From Nitrosomonas sp. (GTDB lineage: Bacteria > Pseudomonadota > Gammaproteobacteria > Burkholderiales > Nitrosomonadaceae), in assembly GCA_021604405.1 (NCBI GenBank), contig BQJA01000015.1, forward strand, positions 1-51,604: a stretch of DNA of 51,604 nt, read 5' to 3'. A model generated the notes under the pieces. That model saw nothing but the letters and a program-made list of their open reading frames with translations. It was not told the DNA's origin and did no database searches. Of the stretch, positions 8,301-51,481 are shown piece after piece. Every line of letters begins with the position of its first letter. Within the stretch, counting starts at the first letter, position 1. The position numbers and the translations under genes were made by a program.

Positions 8301-9170
8301 ATGAAAAGTTCCAATAAAATATTAATAAACAGGGATCTGAGTAAGAAATTAGATGGCTTAACTGTTATTTTGTTTTTTTTTCTGGCGTTTGTCGTTTCAG
8401 GTTGCACTACAGCACCTAAAAATGAACACGAAATAGGGGAGCCAAATGATCCGCATGAGGATATAAATCGGATATCCTACGATTTTACCGATGCGGTTGA
8501 TCGAGCGATACTGGAGCCCGTTGCAACCGTTTATTCCGATTATGTGCCGAAAGGCGCGCAGCGTTCGATTGGGAATTTCTACGGGAACTGGGCTTATCCT
8601 AATACGTTTATAAACGCTTTTTTGCAGGGAAAATTTCGCCAAGGATTTGAGGATACACTTCGCTTCGCAATTAATTCAACGATCGGTCTTTTTGGTTTAT
8701 TCGATATGGCGTCGCATATGGGTTTGCCTGAGAACAAAGAAGATTTTGGCCAAACACTGGCTGTATGGGGCGTGGATGTCGACCAGCCTTATACTTTTAT
8801 TCCGATCCTCGGGCCTAGTAATTATCGGGATATGGTAGGCATTCCGGTGACGGTAACAACTAATATACTGTTCTATGCGGGGACGATGGCAGGAGCCGCA
8901 GTGCTTGGTCCGCTGGTGATAGTGGGTGCAATTGACAAGCGGGCGCGTATGACTGACCCAATGCGTTTTCGTGACCAGGCAGCGCTGGATCCGTATATCT
9001 TTGTACGTGAAGGTTATACGCAGCAGCGCGAATATCTTATCTATGACGGTATGCCACCGCTTGATATTTACAGTGATTTCGAACAGGAAGATGATTTTCA
9101 ACTGAACGTACTGGATGAAAATAAATGTAAGGATTTCAACGCATGTCAAAAAGATTTCATCAAGCAGTAA
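8301..9170 (+). CDS. mlaA: MlaA (VacJ) outer-membrane lipoprotein, phospholipid retrograde transport
   Basis: MlaA removes mislocalised phospholipids from the outer leaflet of the outer membrane and hands them to the Mla pathway (family knowledge). The 289-residue protein has a hydrophobic N-terminus ending in a lipobox with C35 (VVSGC). Its mature part carries the family core: EDINRISYDFTDAVDRAILEP near 50-70, FYGNWAYPNTFINAFLQGK near 93-110, and FGQTLAVWGVDVDQPY near 150. It begins at the ATG at 8301, with no strong ribosome site. Its end overlaps the squalene-hopene cyclase start by 28 nt, indicating translational coupling with hopanoid synthesis. No mlaBCDEF genes are nearby. The C-terminus is acidic and lysine-rich. 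Confidence 0.93.
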   Translation: MKSSNKILINRDLSKKLDGLTVILFFFLAFVVSGCTTAPKNEHEIGEPNDPHEDINRISYDFTDAVDRAILEPVATVYSDYVPKGAQRSIGNFYGNWAYPNTFINAFLQGKFRQGFEDTLRFAINSTIGLFGLFDMASHMGLPENKEDFGQTLAVWGVDVDQPYTFIPILGPSNYRDMVGIPVTVTTNILFYAGTMAGAAVLGPLVIVGAIDKRARMTDPMRFRDQAALDPYIFVREGYTQQREYLIYDGMPPLDIYSDFEQEDDFQLNVLDENKCKDFNACQKDFIKQ

Positions 9171-11128
9171 ATTTTATTCGCACAGAAAAGGTTGCCTTTT
9201 CTCATCAGGCGATGGCTTCGCGCCAGGATACGGTAGATGCTACGGTTTTGAATAAACAATTTAATAAAGCGCGTCAGGCCATGTTGTCCCTGCAACAAAC
9301 GGATGGACACTGGTGTTTTCCTCTGCAGGCTGATTGCACCATTCCGGCTGAATATATGCTAATGATGCATTTCATGGATGAGGTGGATACAAACCTGGAA
9401 GCCAGAATGGCGAACTATTTACGCGACCACCAGGATTTTAAACATGGTGGCTGGCCGTTATATTATGGTGGCGCTTTCGATATAAGCTGCACAGTCAAAG
9501 CTTATTATGCTTTAAAGCTTGCCGGAGATTCCCCTGATGCCATGCACATGATTGCCGCGCGTAATGCAATTTTGGCCCATGGCGGTGCGGCGCGAGCCAA
9601 TGTTTTTACGCGTATTCTGTTGGCGATGTTTGGGCAGATACCATGGCGCGGCGCGCCGGTTGTTCCCGTCGAATTGATATTATTACCTAAATGGTTCCCT
9701 TTTCATTTGAGCAAGATTTCTTACTGGTCGCGAACGGTTATGGTGCCGTTGTCTATTCTGTGTTCACAGAAAGTTCGCGCCGTCAATCCACGCAATGTAC
9801 AGATTCGTGAGCTGTTTACCGTTGCACCGGAAGATGAGAAAAACTATTTTCCTGCAGGAAAGACCCCGCTTAACCGTCTATTCATGTGGATTGAACATGC
9901 TGCCTCGAGTATTGAACCATTTATCCCAAAATTTATACGCCGTATTGCGATACGCCGTGCGGAAAACTGGATTATTGAGCGGTTGAATGGCGAGTGTGGG
10001 CTGGGCGCTATTTTCCCCGCAATGGTTAATGCACACGAAGCACTGGCATTATTGGGCTATGAATATGATCATCCTTACCGGGTGCAATGCCGTACTGCAC
10101 TAAAAGGCTTGTTGGTGGAAGAGGGCAGACGTGCCTGGTGTCAGCCATGTACTTCACCGGTTTGGGATACGGTTTTGGCAAGTCTTGCGCTGCAAGAAGA
10201 TCCAAATACCGACCAACAACCTGTTAATAAAGGTCTGGACTGGCTTATACCGCATCAGGTGCTGGATGCCCCAGGGGATTGGCGGGACAATTGTTCTACG
10301 CCGCTGACCGGCGGTGGCTGGGCTTTTCAATATGCCAACCCACATTATCCGGATCTTGATGATACCGCGGCCGCTGCCTGGGCATTAAACCGGGCGAATT
10401 CATCAGCTTATCATGAGAGCCTGGAGCGATCCGCTGTGTGGATTGCTGGTATGCAGTGCCGTAACGGTGGTTTTGCAGCTTTCGACCTGAACAATACGTA
10501 TCATTATCTGAATGAGATTCCTTTTGCAGATCATGGCGCATTGATCGATCCGCCGACCAGCGATGTGACGGCACGCTGCATCGGTTTTCTGGCGAATTAT
10601 GATGAAACACGCTTTCAGGATGTGGTGGAACGCGGACTGGCATTCCTGTTTCGTGAACAAGAAAAAAATGGCGCTTGGTTTGGAAGATGGGGAACCAATT
10701 ATATTTATGGCACATGGTCAGTGTTGGAAGCTTTCAAACTGGTAAAACTGGATATTGATCATATCGCTGTCCGCCGTGCGATACTATGGCTTAAATCAGT
10801 GCAACGAGATGACGGTGGTTGGGGAGAAAGTAATGATTCTTACTTAACGCCGCAACAGGCAGGAGAATCTGAAACGAGTACTTATTTCCAAACGGCATGG
10901 GCGGTGCTTGGCCTGATGGCTGCGGGTGAGGTGCATAGCCCTCAGGTTCGTCGCGGAATAAATTATTTGTTGTGCAATCAGTCGAGAGATGGCTTGTGGC
11001 AGGAACCCTGGTTTACTGCACCGGGTTTTCCACGAGTCTTTTATTTGAATTACCATGGATACTCTAAGTATTTTCCATTGTGGGCTTTGGCCCGTTATCG
11101 TGCCTTGACGGGAGCAAAAACCTCATGA
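9143..11128 (+). CDS. shc: Squalene-hopene cyclase
   Basis: Cyclises squalene to hopene or hopanol, the core of hopanoid membrane lipids. The 661-residue length fits the family. The acid motif D404-L-D406-D407 (DLDD, equivalent to the DxDD whose middle Asp protonates squalene) is intact. Several QW repeats are visible, such as QQTDGHWCFP near 50, NGGFAAFD near 440, DGGWGES near 555 and SRDGLWQEPW near 615. An AAGGA 9 nt upstream supports the ATG at 9143, which lies inside the end of mlaA. The gene ends in an ATGA overlap with hpnG. The enzyme would sit on the cytoplasmic face of the inner membrane. No squalene synthesis genes (hpnCDE) are in the window. Confidence 0.97.
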   Translation: MSKRFHQAVNFIRTEKVAFSHQAMASRQDTVDATVLNKQFNKARQAMLSLQQTDGHWCFPLQADCTIPAEYMLMMHFMDEVDTNLEARMANYLRDHQDFKHGGWPLYYGGAFDISCTVKAYYALKLAGDSPDAMHMIAARNAILAHGGAARANVFTRILLAMFGQIPWRGAPVVPVELILLPKWFPFHLSKISYWSRTVMVPLSILCSQKVRAVNPRNVQIRELFTVAPEDEKNYFPAGKTPLNRLFMWIEHAASSIEPFIPKFIRRIAIRRAENWIIERLNGECGLGAIFPAMVNAHEALALLGYEYDHPYRVQCRTALKGLLVEEGRRAWCQPCTSPVWDTVLASLALQEDPNTDQQPVNKGLDWLIPHQVLDAPGDWRDNCSTPLTGGGWAFQYANPHYPDLDDTAAAAWALNRANSSAYHESLERSAVWIAGMQCRNGGFAAFDLNNTYHYLNEIPFADHGALIDPPTSDVTARCIGFLANYDETRFQDVVERGLAFLFREQEKNGAWFGRWGTNYIYGTWSVLEAFKLVKLDIDHIAVRRAILWLKSVQRDDGGWGESNDSYLTPQQAGESETSTYFQTAWAVLGLMAAGEVHSPQVRRGINYLLCNQSRDGLWQEPWFTAPGFPRVFYLNYHGYSKYFPLWALARYRALTGAKTS

Positions 11129-14406: not shown

Positions 14407-16569
14407 TTAGAACGAAGATGGCGGTCCGATCAATGGTGTTTTGACCGGGCCGGCGGCCCCGGGAATGATGACAAAAGAATTGCCGCCAGGATTGGTGTCG
14501 TAAACCGGAGCGAAGGGACCCGTTTTCTTCCAGTTGTTTAACAACCAGACATTCCCGGATGGATCGATATTGCCGCCGGTGACCCGATCTAATGCGTTAC
14601 TTACGTAGCCGGTCGGTGGCGAGATTGGATCGCCCGTATTCAGACCAGTCGGGCATTTGCTGATGTCGGCGCCACAGAAATGGGAGAGCGAAGTATCCGG
14701 CCACTCAGTGTTCTCGTCGACGATATCGGTGGGCTTTGTGCCAAAATTAAAGACCCAGAGCGTATCGTTACCGTCGATTGCGTTACCCCAGGGGATCGCG
14801 AGACCGCCGCCGGTGAACATAGAGGGCGAGCTGCCATCGGCAGGATAGAAAGCAACTGATGGTCCCTCGTCTCCATCCTGAGGATCAAGCTCGTCAACAC
14901 AGGGAACCTTCACCGAGTTCGAGTTGGATACCCACATATTTCCGCTGCTGTCGCCGGAAATACCCATCGGCCAGGATAACACCGGTTCGGCGCTGTCATT
15001 CAGGTGCGGCAGCATTTCCACGGCACCATCCGAAGAGACACGGTAGACTCTGCCTACTGCTTCGTTCGGAGATTCAGAATCGAATCCGGCTTGGTTAGCA
15101 GTGACCCATGCGCGACCCTTGGGGTCGATTGCGATGCCGAATGGCTTGAGAAGCGGTGCGTCCGAGTCCGGTTCTGTGTCCGGTATCGAAGGCGTGAAGT
15201 TGCCGGACTCGCCCCGTCCGCCCGAGAGCGCAAAATTTTCTGCCTGATCTGGATTGCCGTTCGGAATAAAGGTGACCGTGTCGTTTCCACAATTTGCCAG
15301 CCAGATGTTGCGCTTCTTATCAGACACAGTTGCTTGCGGCCACCAGATATGACCTTCGGTGAATCCAGTGGGACTGGATACCGGGGTTCCATCCGACTTG
15401 AACAGCGACACGCTGTTATGGCTGGCCGCGACATCCGCGCATGCGTCGTGCGGCGCCTCAAAACCGAAATTACCGACCCAGATCATTCCCTGCGGGTCGA
15501 GTGTGATGCCAAATCCGGCGCCATCGAGGCCGCCCCCGAAATACGGTGAGTCTGGGAAATTTTCTCCCCACGGAAAGATTTTAAGCAGGCGCTGGCCGGC
15601 GCAGGCAACTTCGAAATCGCGCGTCGGAATATAGTTGTCGTTGATCCAGGCAAAGCCGCGCCGATCGAAGGCAATATTGCCCGGACCGCTCATAAGGTTG
15701 TTCTTGTCGTAAATACTGTACTCGCCGCCGGTAAATTTGATAAAGAGCAGGAATGATGTCGGCTGTTCGTCCGGCGTCAGGGCGGGCGCGTAAATCGGGT
15801 TCGCAAAGGAAAGCGTAAAGATGGCGCTGACATGATTCGATGGAAATTTCGTTATATTCGCGATTGCCTGCAGTACGGTTGAAGGTTTTGCACCGCTTGC
15901 CGGTGTGGCTTGCTGAAAGAGTTCTTCGCATTGGTCGTTGTCGTCTACGCAACTCGCGATGATATTGGCCAGGGTGTTGAATGTGGCGCGTGTCGATGTT
16001 TCGCCGGCGTTTGGTGGATTGTCAAGCACTCGGCCGAGTTCGCCGGTCAAGGGATTCGCCATGTTGGCGGCCATCATTACGGCATTGTGTACGCCGTATG
16101 GGTTTCCACTGATCTCGCGGTCGTCGATGAACTGAGCGAATGCAACGCCAAACGCCGCGGTCGTGCGCTCGTTGAGGACAATGGAGCTTATCCCTGCAGT
16201 GCTCCCAATGGCGCTGCCAAGCATGGATTTGTCTTTCTCGGCGAGCACGTATAGAACAGTTTTTTGGTGACGCCGATGACCCGGTGGCAGTTTGTAGCCG
16301 ATCTCGAAATTCCCGAGGTCGTCAGTGGTACCAGTTCCGAGGTAATTGACAGCGTGCTTGCCTTTAACGCCGCTGGCGTAAAGCGTGACCTTATATCCTG
16401 CCTGTCGTTCGCCGCTTCCTTCGACAATACCGGTGAGTATCGACGCTGCGCCGGGATGCGATTCGGCGCTGGCGTTTTGCACCGAGAGCCACGCACAAGC
16501 CACGCCGATAAGCGCTACAAAGACGCGCCAAAAAATAGGGGTACGAATGCCATGGATATTTCCTAGCAT
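14407..16569 (-). CDS. Secreted NHL/Vgb-type beta-propeller-like protein of unknown function
   Basis: About 720 residues. A signal peptide ends near residue 37 (QNASA-ES). A short beta domain follows, resembling a carboxypeptidase regulatory-like fold (ILTGIVEGSGERQAGYKVTLY...DDLGNFEIGY, about 45-95). The C-terminal half (about 290-700) repeats the motif DP-G-IWV or D-SGN-WV: ITLDPQGMIWVGN, AIDPKGRAWVTAN, GISGDSSGNMWVSN, IDPSGNVWLLN, as in NHL-repeat and streptogramin-lyase-like propellers. A perfect AGGAGG five nt upstream fixes the ATG at 16569 rather than the ATG 24 nt earlier. Base composition is visibly richer in G+C than both neighbours, suggesting transfer. Substrate and role are unknown; a periplasmic or extracellular location is likely. 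Confidence 0.7.
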   Translation of the reverse strand: MLGNIHGIRTPIFWRVFVALIGVACAWLSVQNASAESHPGAASILTGIVEGSGERQAGYKVTLYASGVKGKHAVNYLGTGTTDDLGNFEIGYKLPPGHRRHQKTVLYVLAEKDKSMLGSAIGSTAGISSIVLNERTTAAFGVAFAQFIDDREISGNPYGVHNAVMMAANMANPLTGELGRVLDNPPNAGETSTRATFNTLANIIASCVDDNDQCEELFQQATPASGAKPSTVLQAIANITKFPSNHVSAIFTLSFANPIYAPALTPDEQPTSFLLFIKFTGGEYSIYDKNNLMSGPGNIAFDRRGFAWINDNYIPTRDFEVACAGQRLLKIFPWGENFPDSPYFGGGLDGAGFGITLDPQGMIWVGNFGFEAPHDACADVAASHNSVSLFKSDGTPVSSPTGFTEGHIWWPQATVSDKKRNIWLANCGNDTVTFIPNGNPDQAENFALSGGRGESGNFTPSIPDTEPDSDAPLLKPFGIAIDPKGRAWVTANQAGFDSESPNEAVGRVYRVSSDGAVEMLPHLNDSAEPVLSWPMGISGDSSGNMWVSNSNSVKVPCVDELDPQDGDEGPSVAFYPADGSSPSMFTGGGLAIPWGNAIDGNDTLWVFNFGTKPTDIVDENTEWPDTSLSHFCGADISKCPTGLNTGDPISPPTGYVSNALDRVTGGNIDPSGNVWLLNNWKKTGPFAPVYDTNPGGNSFVIIPGAAGPVKTPLIGPPSSF

Positions 16570-16812
16570 ATTGGCCTCCTTAAAATCGAACAAATCATCA
16601 GTATATCATGCAGCAAGCGGTGGGCTGCAAAAAGGGCCGCGAGATACCGCTCATCGGCCTGGCCGTGCCTTTGGTCATTGTCCAGGACTTCGCCAAACGC
16701 GCTATCGTGTTAGTTGCTTCGGTCATCCAAATAAATTGATAAAAAGTCATGTTATTCAGCATATCAAATCTGGCAATTAATCATGTCACATCGCCCAATT
16801 CAGAATAAGTGT

Positions 16813-41496: not shown

Positions 41497-41511
41497 TAAA
41501 AATAATTATCA
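41497..41511 (+). promoter_or_regulatory. Candidate Fur box in front of the sigma factor gene
   Basis: TAAAAATAATTATCA fits the 7-1-7 Fur site TGATAAT-N-ATTATCA at 12 of 14 specified positions, with a perfect right half-site. It ends 15 nt before the sigma factor ATG, where a bound repressor would block transcription or its start. This is the usual control of PvdS/OrbS-type sigma factors by iron, and supports iron regulation of the whole cluster. Confidence 0.65.
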
Positions 41512-41526
41512 ATAAATATAAATGTC

Positions 41527-42048
41527 ATGATGATGCTTGTTGAAAATTGGACTCAGGATTTGAGCACACTGTTCATTACTAATCGTGTGCAATTGCGTCG
41601 AGCTGCATACAAAATTTTAGGGGATTGGAACCTTTCGGATGAAATTGTGCAGGATGCTTATATTAAGACAACCGAATTATCGGCGAAACAGAATGTCAAG
41701 CAGCCGCTATCTTATCTATTCCAAATCGTACGTAACCTGGCTATTGACCAATACCGGCGCAGTGGATTTGAAACAGAGCTGTTTAGGTCAGAGGAAGAAG
41801 GATTACACGTTCATGCGGTGACTGGATTGCCCGAAGCCAATGCGATTAATCGCCAGCACCTAATGTTGATTGCGCAGGCGCTAGACAGGCTTCCTGAGCG
41901 CACAAAGCGCGTTTTTGTGCTTTATCGTTTAAATGGCTATACACATAGAATGATCGCAGAAGAGCTGAATATTTCAACCTCATTGGCAAATATTCTGATT
42001 CATGAGGCAATAGATCATTGTAAAAGCGTTTTATTAAGAAATCTATAG
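41527..42048 (+). CDS. ECF sigma factor, iron-starvation (PvdS/OrbS/FecI-like) type
   Basis: A 173-residue sigma-70 family regulator with region 2 at about 15-80 (LRRAAYKILGDWNLSDEIVQDAYIK, then YLFQIVRNLAIDQYRR) and region 4 at about 110-165 (ALDRLPERTKRVFVLYRLNGYTHRMIAEELNIS). The layout sigma factor, MbtH, thioesterase, NRPS matches siderophore clusters such as ornibactin's orbS-orbH, where the sigma factor drives the synthetase genes and is itself repressed by Fur. No FecR-type anti-sigma gene or TonB-dependent receptor follows, which argues for Fur control rather than surface signalling. Three ATG codons in a row (41527, 41530, 41533) leave the exact start open. Confidence 0.87.
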   Translation: MMMLVENWTQDLSTLFITNRVQLRRAAYKILGDWNLSDEIVQDAYIKTTELSAKQNVKQPLSYLFQIVRNLAIDQYRRSGFETELFRSEEEGLHVHAVTGLPEANAINRQHLMLIAQALDRLPERTKRVFVLYRLNGYTHRMIAEELNISTSLANILIHEAIDHCKSVLLRNL

Positions 42049-42159
42049 GGCGTGCTATAAAAATCCCAAACAATTTTTATACTTCGCTGCATACAAATGA
42101 ATTTCATCCAATGTCTTCGTTTTTTTTTGTATTCTTCATCAGCCGGTTCGTCTAATCTA

Positions 42160-42178
42160 AATAAGAAGCATTCTTATT
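42160..42178. promoter_or_regulatory. Perfect inverted repeat upstream of mbtH, possible operator
   Basis: AATAAGAA and TTCTTATT flank a three-base centre (GCA), a perfect 8-bp inverted repeat 51 nt before the mbtH ATG. It partly resembles a Fur-type TGAGAAT-N-ATTCTCA site but may serve another regulator. Its position suits an operator or promoter element. No obvious TAAAT/CGT (PvdS-type) promoter pair could be placed with correct spacing. Confidence 0.5.
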
Positions 42179-42229
42179 GAAGACAGTTAATATTTGTTAT
42201 TTGAACCTGGAATTGAGGGAGTGGACTAT

Positions 42230-42445
42230 ATGACGAGTTGCTTTGATCGCGAGGATGGAGTGTTTCGCGTGCTGGTTAATCATGAAGAACAATATTCTAT
42301 TTGGCCGGAATGGAAAACTGTTCCAGGCGGGTGGAAGGATACTGGCGTATTAGGCGACAAAAAAGCTTGTCTGGATCATATTGAAAAAGTCTGGACGGAT
42401 ATGCGTCCACTAAGCTTGCGGTTGTTTATGGACAACCAGAATTAG
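42230..42445 (+). CDS. mbtH: MbtH-like NRPS accessory protein
   Basis: A 71-residue MbtH-family chaperone that binds NRPS adenylation domains and helps their folding or activity. The family pattern is plain: [26 protein letters not shown] (about 12-37, with the conserved N, E, S, L/I-WP), then [28 protein letters not shown] lies about 8 nt before the ATG at 42230; a TTG 36 nt further up is unlikely. It is followed 12 nt later by the thioesterase gene and serves the NRPS at 43547. Confidence 0.96.
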
Positions 42446-42457
42446 TGTGTTACTTCA

Positions 42458-43195
42458 ATGCAAGACCAATTAACACTTTTTTGCTTTCCATGCGCAGGGG
42501 CAAGTGCATCGATGTATCGTCGCTGGCGGCGCTTGTTGCCTTCTTGGGTAACTTTAGTACCGATTGAATTACCGGGTCGTGGCAGCAGGATGGATGAACT
42601 GCCGAATGATAGTTTTGCTGCGCTGATTCAAAGCCTGTGCCATGAACTTATACCTTCGCTGCCTGAGAAATATGTTCTTTTTGGTCACAGTATGGGTGCT
42701 TTGCTTGCCTACGGTGTCGCACAGGGCTTGCGTGCTGAGCGCTCATTTACACCTAAGGCTCTATTAGTAGCGGGTTGTGCGGCACCGATTCGCCAGGACA
42801 GTCAGCGTTACAACAACTTGCAGAGTGATGCAGCATTTATTGCCGAGTTGGATAAACAAGGGGGTACGCCAGACGAAGTATTCAATGATCAGGAATTACT
42901 GGCCATGACGCTGGATTTAATGAGAATTGATTACCGCGTTTGCGGGAGCTTCGAATACGCCCAATTGCCGCCGTTACCGATTCCCGTCCATTGCTTTGCT
43001 GGGCGATCAGATGAGATAAAGGCTGCAAAGTTAAATGACTGGTGCTTAGAGAGTACGCAATTATTTACGTTGGATTGGTTCGATGGTGGGCATTTCTTTC
43101 TTCGTCAATCTGAAGACCGGTTTCTGTTTATGTTAAAAAAACGCTTGATGACGTGCCGGGGAGAAGTGCTGCGTGAAACGATTGCATCCGCCTGA
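42458..43195 (+). CDS. Type II (external) thioesterase of an NRPS/PKS pathway
   Basis: A 245-residue alpha/beta-hydrolase that clears wrongly loaded or stalled acyl groups from carrier domains. The nucleophile motif is GHSMG with S78, the N-terminal LFCFPCAGASASMYRRW is the family signature, IELPGRGSRMDE near 38-49 is typical, and the catalytic His lies in WFDGGHFFLRQ near 208-218. It is a separate protein like GrsT, not a releasing domain. It lies between mbtH and the NRPS in one transcription unit. Confidence 0.95.
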   Translation: MQDQLTLFCFPCAGASASMYRRWRRLLPSWVTLVPIELPGRGSRMDELPNDSFAALIQSLCHELIPSLPEKYVLFGHSMGALLAYGVAQGLRAERSFTPKALLVAGCAAPIRQDSQRYNNLQSDAAFIAELDKQGGTPDEVFNDQELLAMTLDLMRIDYRVCGSFEYAQLPPLPIPVHCFAGRSDEIKAAKLNDWCLESTQLFTLDWFDGGHFFLRQSEDRFLFMLKKRLMTCRGEVLRETIASA

Positions 43196-43409
43196 ACGTG
43201 TACTTGTCGAAACTGTGGTTTGGCTTTTCAGTTTTAATTTTTCAGATACCGGTGACTTTGCATTGATTGTGCATTATCTGCAAAAAGTGAGATTGGCAAT
43301 GCGATCGAATATTGTTATGGCTATGGGTGGGCGGAAGTCAAAGCCTGGACCATTGAGTCGCCCACCCACAGAAACCGCGTCTACGTTAACAAATCAGCGT
43401 AAATATTGA
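43173..43409 (+). CDS. Possible small ORF overlapping the thioesterase end; unidentified
   Basis: A 78-codon frame starts at a GTG (43173) with GGGGAG about 9 nt upstream and overlaps the thioesterase stop by 23 nt. The coding look (ERVLVETVVWLFSFNFSDTGDF) fades after about 45 residues. In a second frame near 43280-43405 a further segment (SAKSEIGNAIEYCYGYGW) resembles the C-terminal part of an IS66-like transposase, weakly. It may be the remnant of a gene broken by an insertion. A perfect 14-bp palindrome (43513-43526) and no clear ribosome site precede the NRPS gene. Confidence 0.25.
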   Translation: MKRLHPPERVLVETVVWLFSFNFSDTGDFALIVHYLQKVRLAMRSNIVMAMGGRKSKPGPLSRPPTETASTLTNQRKY

Positions 43410-43546
43410 GAAATTGATTATCTTTACCGCTTTATTTTTTGAACCCAATGAGGTTCCAGTGAAGACTGGATCGTCGAAAAACAATCGGCTGTAGAAATAC
43501 GGGCTTGAGGCTATAAAAGCTTTTATTTGTTTCAATTAATATAAAA

Positions 43547-46500
43547 ATGAATACAAGATTGATTCCATCACGCAGTTTCCCTGAAAATTTTGTAACACAT
43601 CTGCAAACATTGGCGCGCGAACGATCGGATGATACTGCGTTGATTGTGGTTAGTGTCGAAAACGAAATGCTCGTTGACAAGAAATTTGAATATGCATCGC
43701 TTGATTTGCAAGTCAGGGCGCTTGCTGCGGTAATGCAAAATCAGTTCTCACCAGGTGAACGTGCGCTATTGCTGTTAAACAACGGTGAACATTATGTTAT
43801 TAGTTTTTTTGCGTGTCTGTATGCGGGCATCATTGCTGTGCCTGTTTTTCCACCAGAATCACTTCGTGAAAAGCATTTGGCAAGACTGACCGCGATCGCA
43901 GCTGATGCAAGGGCAAGTTGTATTCTTACCAGTAAAAAAATTCTTCCGTTGATCGCCAGTGCGGCGACAGTGCAGTTCTCCGAAGCAACCATACTTACCG
44001 TAGATACGGTGGATCAAAGTAACGCGTCACATTGGCGCGCTTATATGCCGAAGGGTGATGAAATTGCTTTTCTTCAATATACATCAGGCTCCACTTCAAC
44101 ACCCAAAGGGGTCATGGTCAGTCATCAGAACCTGATGATGAATGCCAGAGTGTTTGAAGAAGGCATGTCGATTAATGCAGATGACATTTTTGTCAGCTGG
44201 TTACCGCTTTATCACGATATGGGACTGATTGGCGGGTTATTGCAACCAATACATCGCGGTATTCCAGCAATACTGACGTCACCGAATTTTTTTATTGAGA
44301 AACCTGTGCGTTGGCTGGAAGTTATATCGCGTTATCGTGCTACGGTCAGCGGCGCGCCCAATTTTGCTTTCCAACTCTGTGTCGATCGTGTCAGAAGCTC
44401 GCAGTTACGAGATATTGATTTATCCACTTGGCGTGTTGCATTCTCAGGCGCGGAACCCGTACGGAAAGAAACAATTCAGGCATTTATAAAATGTTTTAAT
44501 CCTGTCGGTTTTTCAGCAGGCACGATTTATCCCTGTTATGGTTTAGCTGAAGCTACGTTGTTTGTAACGGGTGGGTTGCGTGGCGGGGGGGTGCAAACAC
44601 ATACTTTTTCTTCTGAAAAACTTGCGCGAGGCTGCGCAGAATTGGCTGCAGATGGCGCGCCGATTGTGGCATGCGGCTTCCCGGCATCCAATCATTCGGT
44701 AAAAATTGTAGATCCGGAAAAATTGGTTCAATTGGCGGATGGAAAAGTTGGCGAAATATGGACGAGCGGTCCTAGTCTGGCGCATGGTTACTGGCAACAT
44801 CCTCAGGAGACTGCGCAAGCTTTTGTTTGTCAGGAAGGAGAACGTTGGCTGCGAACAGGCGATCTTGGTTTCATTCATGCCCGGCAGTTATACATTATGG
44901 GTCGATGTAAGGATCTCATTATTATCCGCGGGCAAAATATCTACCCACAAGATATCGAGTTGGTTATCGAAGAAGAAGTGGAAGCCGTTCGTAAAGGGCG
45001 GATTGCTGCATTTTCTGTGGAAACGATCGCGGGAGAAGGTGTCGGTGTGGCCGTTGAAGTATCTCGCAATATGCAAAAGTTGATTTCTGCTGAGTCATTG
45101 GTCAAGGTGCTTAATGAAGCAGTCAGCGCGAGCTGCCACGAATCTTTATCTGTGGTTGTATTGTTAAATCCGGGTGGCCTGCCCAAGACATCAAGTGGCA
45201 AGCTGCAACGAGCAGCCTGTCGCCAGGGATGGCTCGAACGAACACTGGATGCATATGCAATGTATGAGCATGATTGCTTTATCCTCGGTGGGGAAGAGCG
45301 CTTGCCGTCTGTACTGACCGATGAAACAGAAATCGTGCTGGCAAAGGTTTGGGAATCAGTTTTAAATCGTACCGGTTTGGTGCGTGAAGATCATTTTTTT
45401 GCGATTGGTGGCAATTCATTGACTGCTGTGCAGGTTGCCGCGCGTGTTTCGGGAAGTTGGTCTATTCGATTTTCTCCGCGTAGCTTGTTTGAGAACCCCC
45501 AATTGCATGCGTGCGCAGCGGAAATCAAATCCCTTTTGGCATCCGACCCGTCTCAGCCGGTTATTGATAATCGCATCTTGCCTATAAGCAGGAAAAATAG
45601 GGTACTGCCTTTATCTTACGGGCAGCAGCGATTATGGTTTCTTTGGCAACTTGATCCATCAAGCGATGCCTATCATGTTCAACATGCATTACAGTTATCC
45701 GGCGCACTAAATAAGCGAGCATTTTCAACAAGTATTGATGATTTGATTGAACGGCATGATTCATTACGCACCGTCTTCCGAGCGGGTGATGATGGTGCAG
45801 TTGAGCAAGTCATTCATCCGGGAGCGTTAAATGTGACAACCGTTATCGATTTGCGTGATGTCGCGATAGCGGAACGTAATGCAAGAATTGAAAGAGAAGT
45901 ACAGCAGATCATCTCGAGCCCTTTCGATTTAACGCAAGGTCCTTTACTGCGCATCGCCTTAATCCGGGTAACCGAGCGCGAAAGCGTTTTTGTAATCGTC
46001 ATGCATCATATCATCTCAGATGGTGTTTCAATGCAAATCTTGCTGGATGAATTCGCTTTATTTTATCAGGCGCATGTACAGCAGAAATCGCCCTGCTTGG
46101 ATAGTTTGCCAATCCAGTTTGTGGATTACGCGCTTTGGCAACAGAAATGGTTGGAAGCGGGTGAAAAAGAAAGGCAGCTGGCTTACTGGCGAAGTCACCT
46201 GGGTGACGAGCATCCGATTCTGCAGCTTCCAACCAGCCACCTCAGACAGCCCGCCACGAGTTATCAAGCAGGTCGCTATCGTTTTGATTTGCCTCTCGAT
46301 TTGCTGGGCAAGTTACGGCAATTGGCGTTGCGTCAGGGCGCCACACTTTTTATTTCATTACTGACAGCTTTTCAAGCTTTATTGTTTCGCTATACGGGAC
46401 AACAAGATATTCGTGTGGGTGTGCCGATGGCTAACCGCAATCAAGTCGAGACAACTGATTTAATCGGATTTTTCGTTAACGCTCAGGTTCTGCGGAGTCA

Positions 46501-48842
46501 GCTCGATAATCGGATGTCACTTGGCGAACTGCTGAAACAAACCAGCGAGGCTGCGATTAATGCGCAAAGCCATCAAGATCTTCCTTTTGAGCAATTGGTT
46601 GAGGCGCTGCATCCTCACCGTGATTTAAGTCATAGTCCGTTGTTTCAGGTAACTATTAATCATTTGCTAAAGGATTATCGTCGTTTTCAGGAGATTACGG
46701 GACTTTCAGTGGCTGATTATTCGCTTCCCGAGCAATCAGCGCAACTTGAATTGCGGCTTGAAACGGTTGAATTACCCGATGGACGCGTAAATGCCAGCTT
46801 CATCTATGCGTCAGAATTATTCAATTCATCGTGGATTGAACGTCTGTCGTTTCATTATCTGCGCATTCTGGAGGTATTGGTAAATGGTCAGGATTTGGCG
46901 ATTAGCGATATCGATCTGTTGAGCAAAGAAGAAAAGCAACAGCTTAAATTCTGGGGGACCAACCAGTATGAATCGCCGGGATTTCAGCCTGTTCATAAAT
47001 TGATTGAGTATCAAGCAATCAGTAATCCCGACAAGGTGGCCGTGATATCGGATCACCTCGAGTTGAGTTATGCAGAACTTAATCACAAATCAAACCAACT
47101 GGCGCATTATCTAATCAGTCTTGGCGTTAAGCCTGAAATGGTGGTTGGCATTGCCGTCGAACGTAATGCCATTGAATTGATTATCGGCCTTTTAGCCATT
47201 CCTTAAAGCGGGTGGCGGTTATGTTCCGCTAGACCCGGAATATCCGAGAGAACGATTGAATTATATGCTCGAAGATAGTGGAATTCAGTTTTTGCTGACA
47301 CAGGCACATGTTAAATCAAAAATTCCCTGCCATGAAAACGTAAAAATACTGGCGCTAGATGCACTTGATCTGAGCGCTGAAATAAAAAACAATCCTGAGA
47401 TTGTTATGCATCACCATAACTTGGCCTATGTTATCTACACTTCGGGGTCAACCGGCCAACCCAAGGGGGTTTCAGTCTCGCATGGCCCGCTGGCCATGCA
47501 TCTGGCTTCAATTAAAGAAATTTATGACGTGCGGCCTGGCGATCGTGAATTGATGTTTTTCTCAATAAATTTTGATGCAGCCGCCGAACAATGGATCACC
47601 CCTTTGACACAAGGCGCCGCATTGGTGCTTTCCTCAGCAAATGATCTGGCAGGTGATGGTTTCGTGGACTTGATTGAGAAACACCGGATAACGACGCTGC
47701 ATCTTCCCCCTGCCTATTTGAGAATGCTGTTGCCGATGATGCATGGCAAAGCAAACTCCATTCGTACCTGTATTGCAGGCGGGGAAGCCTGGTACGTCAC
47801 CGACGTGGCAGGCGTTCGGGATGTGCTCCGGAACGCCCGGCTGGTAAATGCGTATGGTCCGACTGAAAGCGTGATTACGCCAACGGTATGGATTAGCCAT
47901 ACGGATAAAAATACCCGGAAGTTTTGTACCGGGGGGGAGTACGTACCCATAGGAACACCCGTTGGTGCACGTAACGTATATGTGTTGGATACGCAACTCA
48001 ACCTTGTGCCGCAAGGTGCGATAGGCGAGCTCTACGTGGGTGGAGAAGGGCTGGCACGCGGCTATCTTGAACGAACTGCGTTGACCGGCGAGCGTTTTAT
48101 TCCGAACCCCTTTGATTCAATGGGTAGCCGCCTTTATCGAACGGGTGATTGGGTGCGCTGGAACGACGAAGGGCTGCTGGAATATCTGGGCCGTGTCGAT
48201 CATCAGATAAAAATTCGTGGTTTTCGGGTGGAGTTGGGAGAAATTGAGGCACAGCTGCTTGCCCAGACCGGTGTGCGTGATGTGGCGGTGGTGGCTCAGA
48301 AAGGAAGTGGCGGCTTGCGTTTAGTCGCTTATTTAGTCCCGCATGACGGTGTACAACTGAGTTCGGCTTTGTTGAAGACGTCGTTAACAGCGACACTTCC
48401 TGATTATATGATCCCCAATTCATTTATTTTTCTTGATGCAATGCCTATTAATCCTAACGGAAAAATTGATCGGAAGGCACTTCCATCACCAGAACAATAT
48501 GACCAAGACGATTACGAACCGCCTGTTAATGAACTGGAAATGATCATCGCTGAAATATGGTCGGATGTACTGGGGATCCATCAGGTTGGGTTACAAAGCA
48601 ATTTTTTTGATTTGGGCGGTCACTCGCTGTTGTTGATCAAGGTTAAACAAAGACTGGAAGAACACCTTGGTATTCAAATGGCTATCGTAGATCTTTTTAA
48701 ATATACCACGGTTGCGGGTTTAGCTAAATTTGTAACTCAGGGAAATACCGGTAATGCATCGTTACAGCGTCACCGGGAGCGGGCACAACGGCAACGCGGT
48801 ACTTTTATTCGACAAAAACAGAAAGCAAAGAGGATACATTAA
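43547..48842 (+). CDS. NRPS: FAAL-PCP-C-A-PCP, frameshifted in the A domain
   Basis: A fatty acyl-AMP ligase at about 1-585 would load a lipid starter: FLQYTSGSTSTPKGVM, SWLPLYHDMGLIGG and CYGLAEATLFVTGG are FAAL-type motifs. A carrier domain with S624 (GGNS) follows, then a condensation domain (~690-1110) with H820-H821-IIS-D825-G826 (HHxxxDG). The adenylation domain starts near 1155. One extra C at 47201-47202 shifts the frame and gives a TAA at 47204-47206. Removing it joins LAI to LKAGGGYVPLDPEYP and the domain continues with IYTSGSTGQPKG, NAYGPTES and YRTGDW, then a second carrier domain (Ser codon at 48624-48626). Without repair, two fragments result. The protein would acylate one amino acid. 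The PKS start overlaps its stop (TAATG). Substrate prediction is unsafe by eye. Confidence 0.9.
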
Positions 48843-51481
48843 TGGCCAGACCTGAAGAATTTCCGGAAAACACTGATCTCGATATTGCAATCGTTGGTAT
48901 GGCGTGCCGTTTGCCTGGCGCGGAGGATATCGAGTCTTTTTGGCGTAATTTGCACGCGGGGATTGAATCCATTAATTCCTTTACCGATGAGGAACTGCTT
49001 GCGTGTGGCGTATCGCCTGAAGTACTTAAAGATCCGCTCTACATAAAGGCAGGCGCTCAACTCAAGGATGTCGATCTCTTTGATGCTTCTTTTTTTGGTT
49101 ATACACCACGTGAAGCCGCGGAAACAGACCCGCAACATCGAATTTTTCTTGAAGTGGCATGGCAGGCTTTGGAAGACGCGGGCTACGATATATCAAGGTA
49201 CACCAATCCGGTTGGTGTCTATGCGGGATGCGGTGTCAATATTTATCTGTTAATGAACCTAATGTCCAGCGGATGCATGTCAGATATGCAGGATATTTCT
49301 GCATTGCAAGGGCTTATGAACGGTAATAATAAGGACTCCATGACCACAACGGTTGCCTATAAGCTCAATTTGCGCGGACCGGGTATTACCGTTCAAACTG
49401 CATGTTCGACCTCTCTTGCTGCAACGCATGTGGCTTGTCGCGGCTTGCTCAATCATGAGGCTGATATGGCCATCGCGGGTGGGGTATGGGTGAATTTGCT
49501 GCATAACGAAGGCGGTTATCTTTATCAACCGGGTGCGATTCTTTCGCCGGATGGTCATTGCCGTGCGTTTGATGCCAAGGCTGCGGGGACGGTGATAGGC
49601 AGTGGTGTGGGTGTTGTGGTCCTCAAGCGGCTGGCAGATGCCCAGGCTGAGGGCGATACGATCCATGCGGTGATTAAAGGATCTGCGATCAACAATGATG
49701 GATCAGCAAAAGCCGGTTATACCGCTCCCAGCATTGAAGGACAAGCGGAGGTCATTCTGGCGGCCCAGGCCAATGCAGGTGTTTCTGCGGATACCATCAG
49801 CTATGTTGAAACGCATGGCACTGGCACAAAGATTGGTGACCCGATTGAAATTGCAGCGTTGACGCAGGCTTTCCGGGAGAGTACCGATAAGCGTGGTTTT
49901 TGCGGTATCGGTTCAGTCAAGACGAATGTGGGTCATTTGGATGCGGCGGCTGGCGTGGCAGGTTTGATTAAAACTGTGCTTGCTTTGAAATATCGGAGTC
50001 TCCCGCCCAGTTTAAATTTTGAACAGCCTAATCCGGAAATCGATTTTGCTTCGAGTCCGTTTTACGTCAATACCGAGCGTAAAGCATGGACAAACGGATC
50101 GACGCCGCGTCGTGCAGGCGTCAGTTCGTTTGGGATTGGTGGAACTAATGTACACATGGTTGTTGAAGAAGCGCCCGCGATCATATCATCCGAGTCTTCG
50201 CAGGACTGGCAAACATTAATGCTTTCGGCTAGAAGCGCAAGTGCACTTGAAAAAGCAGTTACTCGTTTGCAAAATCATTTGACTGCTCATTCAGAACAAC
50301 CCTTATCTGATGTTGCCTATACGCTTCAGGTCGGAAGAAAGAATTTTTCTTACCGGACGATTGCATTGTGTCGAGACCGTGAAGATGCCGTGATGTTGCT
50401 GCAGAATCGCGATGAAGACCGTTTCATGACACAGCACGTGGCATTTGAGAATCGTCCGGTCACATTTCTTTTTCCGGGGCAAGGGTCGCAATATACCAAT
50501 ATGGCTCGCGATCTCTATCACAATAACAATACGTTAGTTTTCCGCCAGGAGCTGAATCGTTGTTTTGATTTGCTTAAACCGCATCTTGATTTTGATCTGT
50601 GCAGCATATTGTTTCCTGATAACAATGAGGAAGACCTTGCTTTAGCCTCGGCGCGGCTCGAGCAAACCGAAGTTACACAGCCTGCGTTGTTTGTTATTGA
50701 ATATGCCTTGGCGAAATTATGGATGTCATGGGGTATTCAGCCCACATCAATGATAGGTCATAGTGTTGGTGAGTACGTGGCAGCATGTCTGGCAGGTGTG
50801 ATTTCCCTGGAGGATGCTTTGCAGTTAGTCGCGATGCGTGGACGCTTGTTACAGCAAATGAACAAGGGGGCTATGCTGGCTGTCATGCTGTCTGAGGACG
50901 AACTCATGGCATTAAAGATTGCGGACTGCGATTTGGCGGCGATAAATGGGCCAGCATTTTGCGTTTTATCTGGTACTTCTGCCGCTATCGACGCGGCTGA
51001 AAAAAGGCTTGCCGAGCAAGATATCGGTTGTCGGCGGTTGCATGTTTCGCATGCTTTTCATTCCAGTATGGTGGAGCCGGTTGTGTCCGTTTTTGTTGAT
51101 CGGGTAGCCCGGGTAGCGTTGCGTCGACCTAAAATTCCTTTCTTTTCAAATTTGAGCGGGGATTGGATTACTCCTCAAGAAGCCATGGATGCCGGTTACT
51201 GGGGACGTCATCTGCGTGGAACCGTGCGTTTTAATAATGGCTTGCAAAAGTTACTGGAAAATGAAGCGCAGGTTATTCTCGAAGTTGGTCCTGGTGAAAC
51301 ATTGATTACACTGGCTCAGCGCCATCCTTCAGCAAGACCTGAACATCTGATGGTGTCCTCGCTGCCTCACCCAAACAAAAACTATGGCGCGCAAAAACAC
51401 CTGTGGCTCAGTCTTGGCAAGCTTTGGCTCAATGGATTAACCATCGATTGGGAGAGTTATTATCCTAAATTCCTCAGTTAA
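48842..51481 (+). CDS. Type I PKS module, KS-AT, ending early
   Basis: An 879-residue protein with a complete ketosynthase (~15-440) bearing C188 (TACSTS), H325 (THGTGT) and H365 (NVGHLDAA), and an acyltransferase (~525-820) with S641 (GHSVG) and the HAFH motif at 737-740 that points to malonyl-CoA. It would elongate the aminoacyl chain by two carbons. The post-AT linker reads LWLSLGKLWLNGLTIDWESYY, after which a normal module goes on to YPFERQ-type sequence; here a TAA comes ten residues later. No KR or carrier domain follows in this window. It is either a split module needing a carrier in trans, or a truncated gene. The ATG overlaps the NRPS stop. Confidence 0.9.
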   Translation: MARPEEFPENTDLDIAIVGMACRLPGAEDIESFWRNLHAGIESINSFTDEELLACGVSPEVLKDPLYIKAGAQLKDVDLFDASFFGYTPREAAETDPQHRIFLEVAWQALEDAGYDISRYTNPVGVYAGCGVNIYLLMNLMSSGCMSDMQDISALQGLMNGNNKDSMTTTVAYKLNLRGPGITVQTACSTSLAATHVACRGLLNHEADMAIAGGVWVNLLHNEGGYLYQPGAILSPDGHCRAFDAKAAGTVIGSGVGVVVLKRLADAQAEGDTIHAVIKGSAINNDGSAKAGYTAPSIEGQAEVILAAQANAGVSADTISYVETHGTGTKIGDPIEIAALTQAFRESTDKRGFCGIGSVKTNVGHLDAAAGVAGLIKTVLALKYRSLPPSLNFEQPNPEIDFASSPFYVNTERKAWTNGSTPRRAGVSSFGIGGTNVHMVVEEAPAIISSESSQDWQTLMLSARSASALEKAVTRLQNHLTAHSEQPLSDVAYTLQVGRKNFSYRTIALCRDREDAVMLLQNRDEDRFMTQHVAFENRPVTFLFPGQGSQYTNMARDLYHNNNTLVFRQELNRCFDLLKPHLDFDLCSILFPDNNEEDLALASARLEQTEVTQPALFVIEYALAKLWMSWGIQPTSMIGHSVGEYVAACLAGVISLEDALQLVAMRGRLLQQMNKGAMLAVMLSEDELMALKIADCDLAAINGPAFCVLSGTSAAIDAAEKRLAEQDIGCRRLHVSHAFHSSMVEPVVSVFVDRVARVALRRPKIPFFSNLSGDWITPQEAMDAGYWGRHLRGTVRFNNGLQKLLENEAQVILEVGPGETLITLAQRHPSARPEHLMVSSLPHPNKNYGAQKHLWLSLGKLWLNGLTIDWESYYPKFLS

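Follow-up and report, generated by a model that had tools for sequence, protein, structure and literature searches.

The window analysed was the whole of contig C15 (51,604 nt), part of a 3.74 Mb, 199-contig draft genome of Nitrosomonas. A first-pass annotation of this DNA had proposed a run of genes beginning with a Fur-like site and an ECF sigma factor, followed by MbtH, a type II thioesterase, a FAAL-PCP-C-A-PCP NRPS (here NRPS1) and a KS-AT PKS. This order was recovered. The features of C15 were as follows:

41497–41511 (+): Fur-like site
41527–42048 (+): ECF sigma factor (Pfam Sigma70_r2 and r4_2)
42194–42445 (+): MbtH-like protein (PF03621)
42458–43195 (+): type II thioesterase (PF00975)
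43328–43390 (+): what seems to be left of a PPTase gene, from its 3′ end (gapped alignment to four relatives, raw scores 80–107)
43547–47206 (+): first piece of NRPS1, FAAL-PCP-C-A (N-terminal part), from domain searches
47196–47206 (+): site at which the NRPS1 frame shifts by one base, inside the first A domain
47256–48842 (+): second piece of NRPS1, A (C-terminal part)-PCP, code DAEHIGAITK
48842–51463 (+): PKS KS-AT, the first half of a KS-AT-KR-PCP gene, from Pfam and alignment to relatives
51459–51463 (no strand): ATTAT, a 5-bp duplication with its second copy at 138–142 of contig C4
51464–51604 (no strand): left end of an IS-like repeat, 138 bases of which were identical at the ends of contigs C61 and C68

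The MbtH gene probably starts at 42230, because alignments to its relatives begin only at residue 10 or 13, and the AT domain of the PKS was presumably malonyl-type. C15 carries the 5′ half of an operon which, in relatives with an intact copy, should yield an acylated peptide siderophore. Elsewhere in the window, 9143–11128 (+) encoded a squalene-hopene cyclase, which points to hopanoid lipids, and a 728-codon frame at 14407–16593 (-) had no Pfam match at 1e-5. An Rfam search of the window gave no matches.

The Fur-box candidate that had been proposed 15 nt before the sigma gene was borne out. The 15-mer matched 12 of the 14 positions of the 7-1-7 Fur consensus, ended 15 nt upstream of the sigma ATG at 41527 and lay in a block conserved in five aligned upstream regions. 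When the 100 nt ahead of the sigma gene were shuffled 5000 times by mononucleotide, 16 of the shuffles reached a score of 12. Across the window, eight Fur-like sites with three or fewer mismatches were observed against 4.06 expected; seven of 100 shuffles reached eight, so that this excess was not significant. Eleven rows were scored in this way, in which G082 (L093) and G080 (L035) each figured twice, leaving nine distinct clusters; within 100 nt, at least 11 of the 14 Fur positions were matched in six of the nine, with the sigma start guessed for three (L040, L044 and L050). The best NCBIfam match of the sigma factor was PRK07037, at 180 bits and therefore under the cut-off of 190. A functional Fur box has been reported in N. 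europaea (PMC3050691). The arrangement at C15 suggests that the operon may be controlled by Fur and the sigma factor, as in a PvdS/OrbS-type regulon.

The KS-AT gene was not a complete PKS. Its frame continued to 51481 inside inserted DNA, and the stop there was not its natural end; similarity to the PKS of relatives ceased at residue 874–876 and repeated IS-like DNA ran from 51464 to the end of the contig. Contig C4 started near the middle of the PKS and, past its own copy of ATTAT, resumed the PKS sequence as found in relatives. The remainder of the cluster was located there:

C4 284–2095: KR-PCP, the second half of the PKS, in frame
C4 2092–5415: NRPS-B, C-A-PCP
C4, after NRPS-B: NRPS-C, 3979 codons, C-A-PCP-E-C-A-PCP-C-A-PCP-TE
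C4, downstream of NRPS-C (-): penicillin acylase, PepSY-type protein and ABC exporter
C4: GNAT acetyltransferase (PF13523), the putative N-hydroxyornithine acyltransferase
C4: L-ornithine N5-monooxygenase (PF13434)
C4 27194–29455: TonB receptor, the putative dedicated receptor of the cluster
C4: alpha/beta hydrolase, outer-membrane efflux protein and PPTase-like protein
C4: putatively, a first PepSY-like frame and, past the efflux protein, two frames for an adaptor and an RND pump

By Pfam, NRPS-C contained four condensation-type domains, three A domains, three PCPs and a single TE; the second condensation-type domain was read by eye as an epimerase from its motif and its place. Genome-wide there were six condensation-type matches, one on C15 and five on C4. 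The additional NRPS modules, TonB receptor, TE and ornithine N5-monooxygenase for which a search had been recommended were thus all present, and the earlier statement that there was neither a receptor nor an ornithine hydroxylase was correct for the window but not for the genome.

The C4 block was also present in G080, G083 and G002, the compared stretches being clipped at their ends. In G080 it lay directly behind the NRPS genes, as it does here, and a single contig encoded the PKS, NRPS-B, NRPS-C, acylase, exporter, GNAT enzyme and monooxygenase consecutively; in G083 a block of the C4 type was approximately 180–220 kb away from the NRPS genes. Orthologous clusters of Nitrosomonas, Nitrosospira and Nitrosovibrio shared this gene set and its order. 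The compared relatives differed from the present copy in that a PPTase gene and unbroken NRPS1 and PKS genes were found in 5/5, and in that the type of the second residue varied.

The codes of the five A domains, in order, were DAEHIGAITK, DILQLGMIWK, DGECTGGITK, DGEDHGTVTK and DGEAVGGVTK. They were read by the usual rule, with the usual assignments to Gly, Ser and Asp. At position 278 of the fourth A domain the script gave A; D is used here, as read by eye in this genome and in a Variovorax sequence. Four of the five codes were constant across all six compared clusters, save for one position in G002. The second code, that of NRPS-B, varied: G081 and G083 had a Gly-type code, G080 and G002 a Ser-type one and G082 one of another type; this may represent either a natural module swap or drift. 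Of the three codes in NRPS-C, DGECTGGITK is hydroxyornithine-type and the other two are likely to be so. This genome had no match to the TauD family, and neither did 22 of its 23 PKS-bearing relatives; the sole match, in G019, was on a different contig from the PKS of that genome. A beta-hydroxyaspartate chemistry was dropped, the genome having no TauD and the cluster no Asp-type code. Because there are three ornithine-type codes and no TauD-type Asp hydroxylase, we infer from the module content that the product would be an N-acylated lipopeptide siderophore, probably with three and at least with two hydroxamates, and without beta-hydroxyaspartate. The acyl group and the single malonate of the short N-acylated product envisaged earlier were retained; its small size was not, as the modules predict five amino acids.

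If the fourth A domain loaded lysine or unmodified ornithine there would be only two hydroxamates, and the product would be tetradentate or completed by another group. The shorter code DGEDHGTV is tied to lysine in two pyoverdine papers (PMC3207962, PMC7139650). Against this, a survey assigns the exact code DGEDHGTVTK, which here includes the D read by eye, to ornithine-activating domains and DGECTGGITK to modified ornithine (PMC12283262), and no TauD was available to furnish a third ligand. We regard the two-hydroxamate product as possible but rather doubtful.

The distribution of the cluster was analysed in 85 genomes of the genus, including this one, with an orthologous PKS defined as a KS-AT match of at least 70% identity. 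KS-AT matches at 1e-50 were found in 39/85 genomes, of which 24 satisfied this definition. The PKS was one frame of 1536–1608 codons in 22 of the 24; it was 908 codons here, and in G043 it consisted of two distant pieces. G043, whose KS-AT pieces were approximately 440 kb apart and may stem from a further broken copy, from two separate genes or from misassembly, was included among the 24 PKS genomes and excluded from the intact ones. The monooxygenase was found in 27/85 genomes and the receptor (at least 62% identity) in 31/85, these 31 including all 27 with the monooxygenase, and every one of the 24 PKS genomes had both. Fisher's tests, in which the kinship of the genomes was ignored, gave 3e-18 for the PKS with the monooxygenase and 3e-15 for the PKS with the receptor. 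G028, G032 and G060 encoded the monooxygenase and receptor without a PKS of 70% identity. A receptor orthologue (65–73% identity) without monooxygenase or PKS was observed in G006, G012, G020 and G040, of which G020 was only 66% complete; these four may take up a siderophore that a neighbour makes. KS-AT relatives were encoded by 69 loci of the named collection, of which 32 were from ammonia oxidisers (70–85% identity) and 37 from other bacteria (35–63%). The KS-AT relatives on plasmid records were all below 60% identity.

This co-occurrence, together with the monooxygenase, GNAT enzyme, TonB receptor and exporters on C4, supported the suggestion that the product is a siderophore. The other suggestion made for it, a signalling lipid, was weakened, the chelating groups probably being hydroxamates. 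Many FAAL-NRPS-PKS lines do yield signalling or surface-active lipopeptides, but the monooxygenase, the TonB receptor and also the GNAT enzyme accompanied the PKS in 24/24 genomes, and such a product was judged very improbable and dropped.

Ornibactin, malleobactin and amphibactin are likewise hydroxyornithine siderophores, and the ornibactin system has a sigma factor with MbtH; to our knowledge, none of the three involves a PKS round. A closer likeness was to the var cluster of Variovorax, which was compared, by its genes alone, through a similar cluster on a plasmid of Variovorax sp. PDNC026 (NZ_CP070344.1). The two have in common the order of sigma factor, MbtH, type II thioesterase, FAAL-C-A-PCP and KS-AT-KR-PCP. 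The first A code of PDNC026, DAEDLGAITK (read by eye), matched DAEHIGAITK at 8/10 positions, and because of this agreement the first residue is likely to be basic. Variochelins are described as acyl-tailed peptides whose Arg-derived residue is lengthened in a single PKS round and which also contain Ser, Pro, two acetyl-hydroxyornithines and a beta-hydroxyaspartate; the last is made by the TauD domain of VarG, and knocking out varG abolishes production (PMC10999976). The KS-AT here was only 54% identical to its PDNC026 counterpart, and the C and TauD domains with which the PDNC026 PKS ends (KS-AT-KR-PCP-C-TauD) were absent. Unlike the variochelin type, the cluster had no Asp-type code and three ornithine-type codes. 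It shared the FAAL-NRPS followed by KS-AT-KR-PCP, but because the TauD hydroxylase and Asp module were lacking it was not classed with the variochelin clusters, though it would work like one. Cyanochelin B of Leptolyngbya is described as also coming from a FAAL-started NRPS/PKS siderophore line, but with its own aspartate beta-hydroxylase and other modules (PMC12628792). The cyanobacterial KS-AT was approximately 55% identical to that of C15. A cursory screening of the literature on siderophores and NRPSs of Nitrosomonas and Nitrosospira, in which subscription journals were thinly covered, brought up no paper recognised as dealing with the product of this operon.

The copy on C15 and C4 appeared damaged in three places, none of which was affected in the five relatives examined in detail (G080–G083 and G002). 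The first was the PPTase gene. The interval between the thioesterase and NRPS1 was 352 nt here vs 777–1310 nt in 5/5 relatives, where it contained a PPTase-like match (43–45% identity to the PPTase of C4; that of G083 was checked with Pfam), and approximately 63 nt of the PPTase tail seemed to be left at 43328. The second was NRPS1. Its FAAL-PCP-C-A-PCP domains were as the first-pass annotation described them, but not its single reading frame, which a one-base length change in the A domain splits. The intact NRPS1 and PKS were 1767 and 1536 codons, respectively, in both G083 and G082, the two for which frames were listed. A programmed translational frameshift would accord with the stop codon immediately after the shift; the frame was continuous at this position in 5/5 relatives, however, and no stimulating element was found by eye, making such an event extremely unlikely, and it was dropped.

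The third lesion was the interruption of the PKS. The first bases of C4 recurred at the start of C107 and within C149 (96–97% identity), both types of repeat end began with CCTA, and the PKS-side flank of both was ATTAT. Further ends of IS-like elements were observed on C61, C68, C107 and C149, with flanks of TTAA or TTAT. The inverted repeat alone scored 26, inside the range of 500 shuffles (maximum 28). In a related copy, a frame of 104 residues matched nothing in Pfam, and its one match on a plasmid was to a Polaromonas hypothetical protein. A single IS insertion between AT and KR is something we can only infer, because none of the 199 contigs contains the entire element.

In this assembly the operon therefore had neither an unbroken NRPS1 nor an unbroken PKS, and because its synthesis genes were hit in three places the siderophore is probably not made; production has probably been lost from this genome. 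Against loss, the IS-like element is not assembled in one piece, a lone frameshift in a 199-contig draft may be an assembly error, and the second PPTase-like gene on C4 could stand in for the lost one. The operon might then still work, with the PKS halves acting in trans and the C4 PPTase serving the carrier domains. The two PKS halves, like the remaining genes, form long open frames, and all gene pieces appeared to be under purifying selection (pairwise dN/dS of 0.07–0.19 for 12 gene pieces vs G080 and G083). As dS was mostly at least 0.8 for these pieces, dN/dS is little informative on recent relaxation; it attests to open frames under constraint over the long term and does not date the damage. 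The dN from G002 was slightly higher here than for G080 in 9/10 gene pieces, kept and broken alike. A working operon is countered by the single frame of the PKS in nearly all PKS-bearing genomes of the genus, by the three lesions within one stretch and by the IS-like DNA, which would need to permit downstream transcription; we consider it unlikely. The reading we favour, and hold to be probable, is that of a conserved nitrifier siderophore system in which synthesis has been lost here while the genes for tailoring, export and uptake are still open.

In an intact cluster, iron shortage would cause Fur to vacate its site upstream of the sigma gene, whose product would switch the operon on. The FAAL would load a fatty acid, to which NRPS1 would attach the first, probably basic, amino acid, and the PKS would add one malonate and reduce it, giving a beta-hydroxy-gamma-amino acid. 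NRPS-B, by its code in this genome, would add glycine and NRPS-C three ornithine-type residues, the first turned to D by the E domain, before the TE freed the product. The monooxygenase and GNAT enzyme would make N5-acyl-N5-hydroxyornithine beforehand, so that the product could carry as many as three hydroxamates, which would suffice for hexadentate binding of iron. The pumps would export the siderophore and the TonB receptor would return its iron complex. In the present genome synthesis would fail at the lost PPTase, the frameshifted NRPS1 and the PKS split by the IS-like element. Because the operon appears broken while the receptor is kept, this bacterium may rely on siderophores that other organisms produce.

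Ammonia oxidation has a high iron demand. N. europaea is described as making no siderophore although it devotes 4% of its genes to acquiring iron, and genes for siderophore synthesis are noted, with no product given, in the genome report for N. communis (PMC3050691 and PMC4714114, respectively). What is new here is that the pathway has been completed, that it is spread among nitrifiers, that it lacks the beta-hydroxyaspartate step and that production has probably been lost with the receptor kept; from the operon, a class of product can be predicted for many members of Nitrosomonas and Nitrosospira. We tentatively suggest, while giving it somewhat less than even chances, that a nitrifier has been caught switching from siderophore producer to user, with a constrained trihydroxamate system, up to three separate lesions, a retained receptor and four receptor-only congeners. 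If this is true, siderophore 'cheating' among ammonia oxidisers would become directly testable. Retention of the receptor beside a damaged copy also suggests that nitrifying communities may share their iron carriers as common goods.
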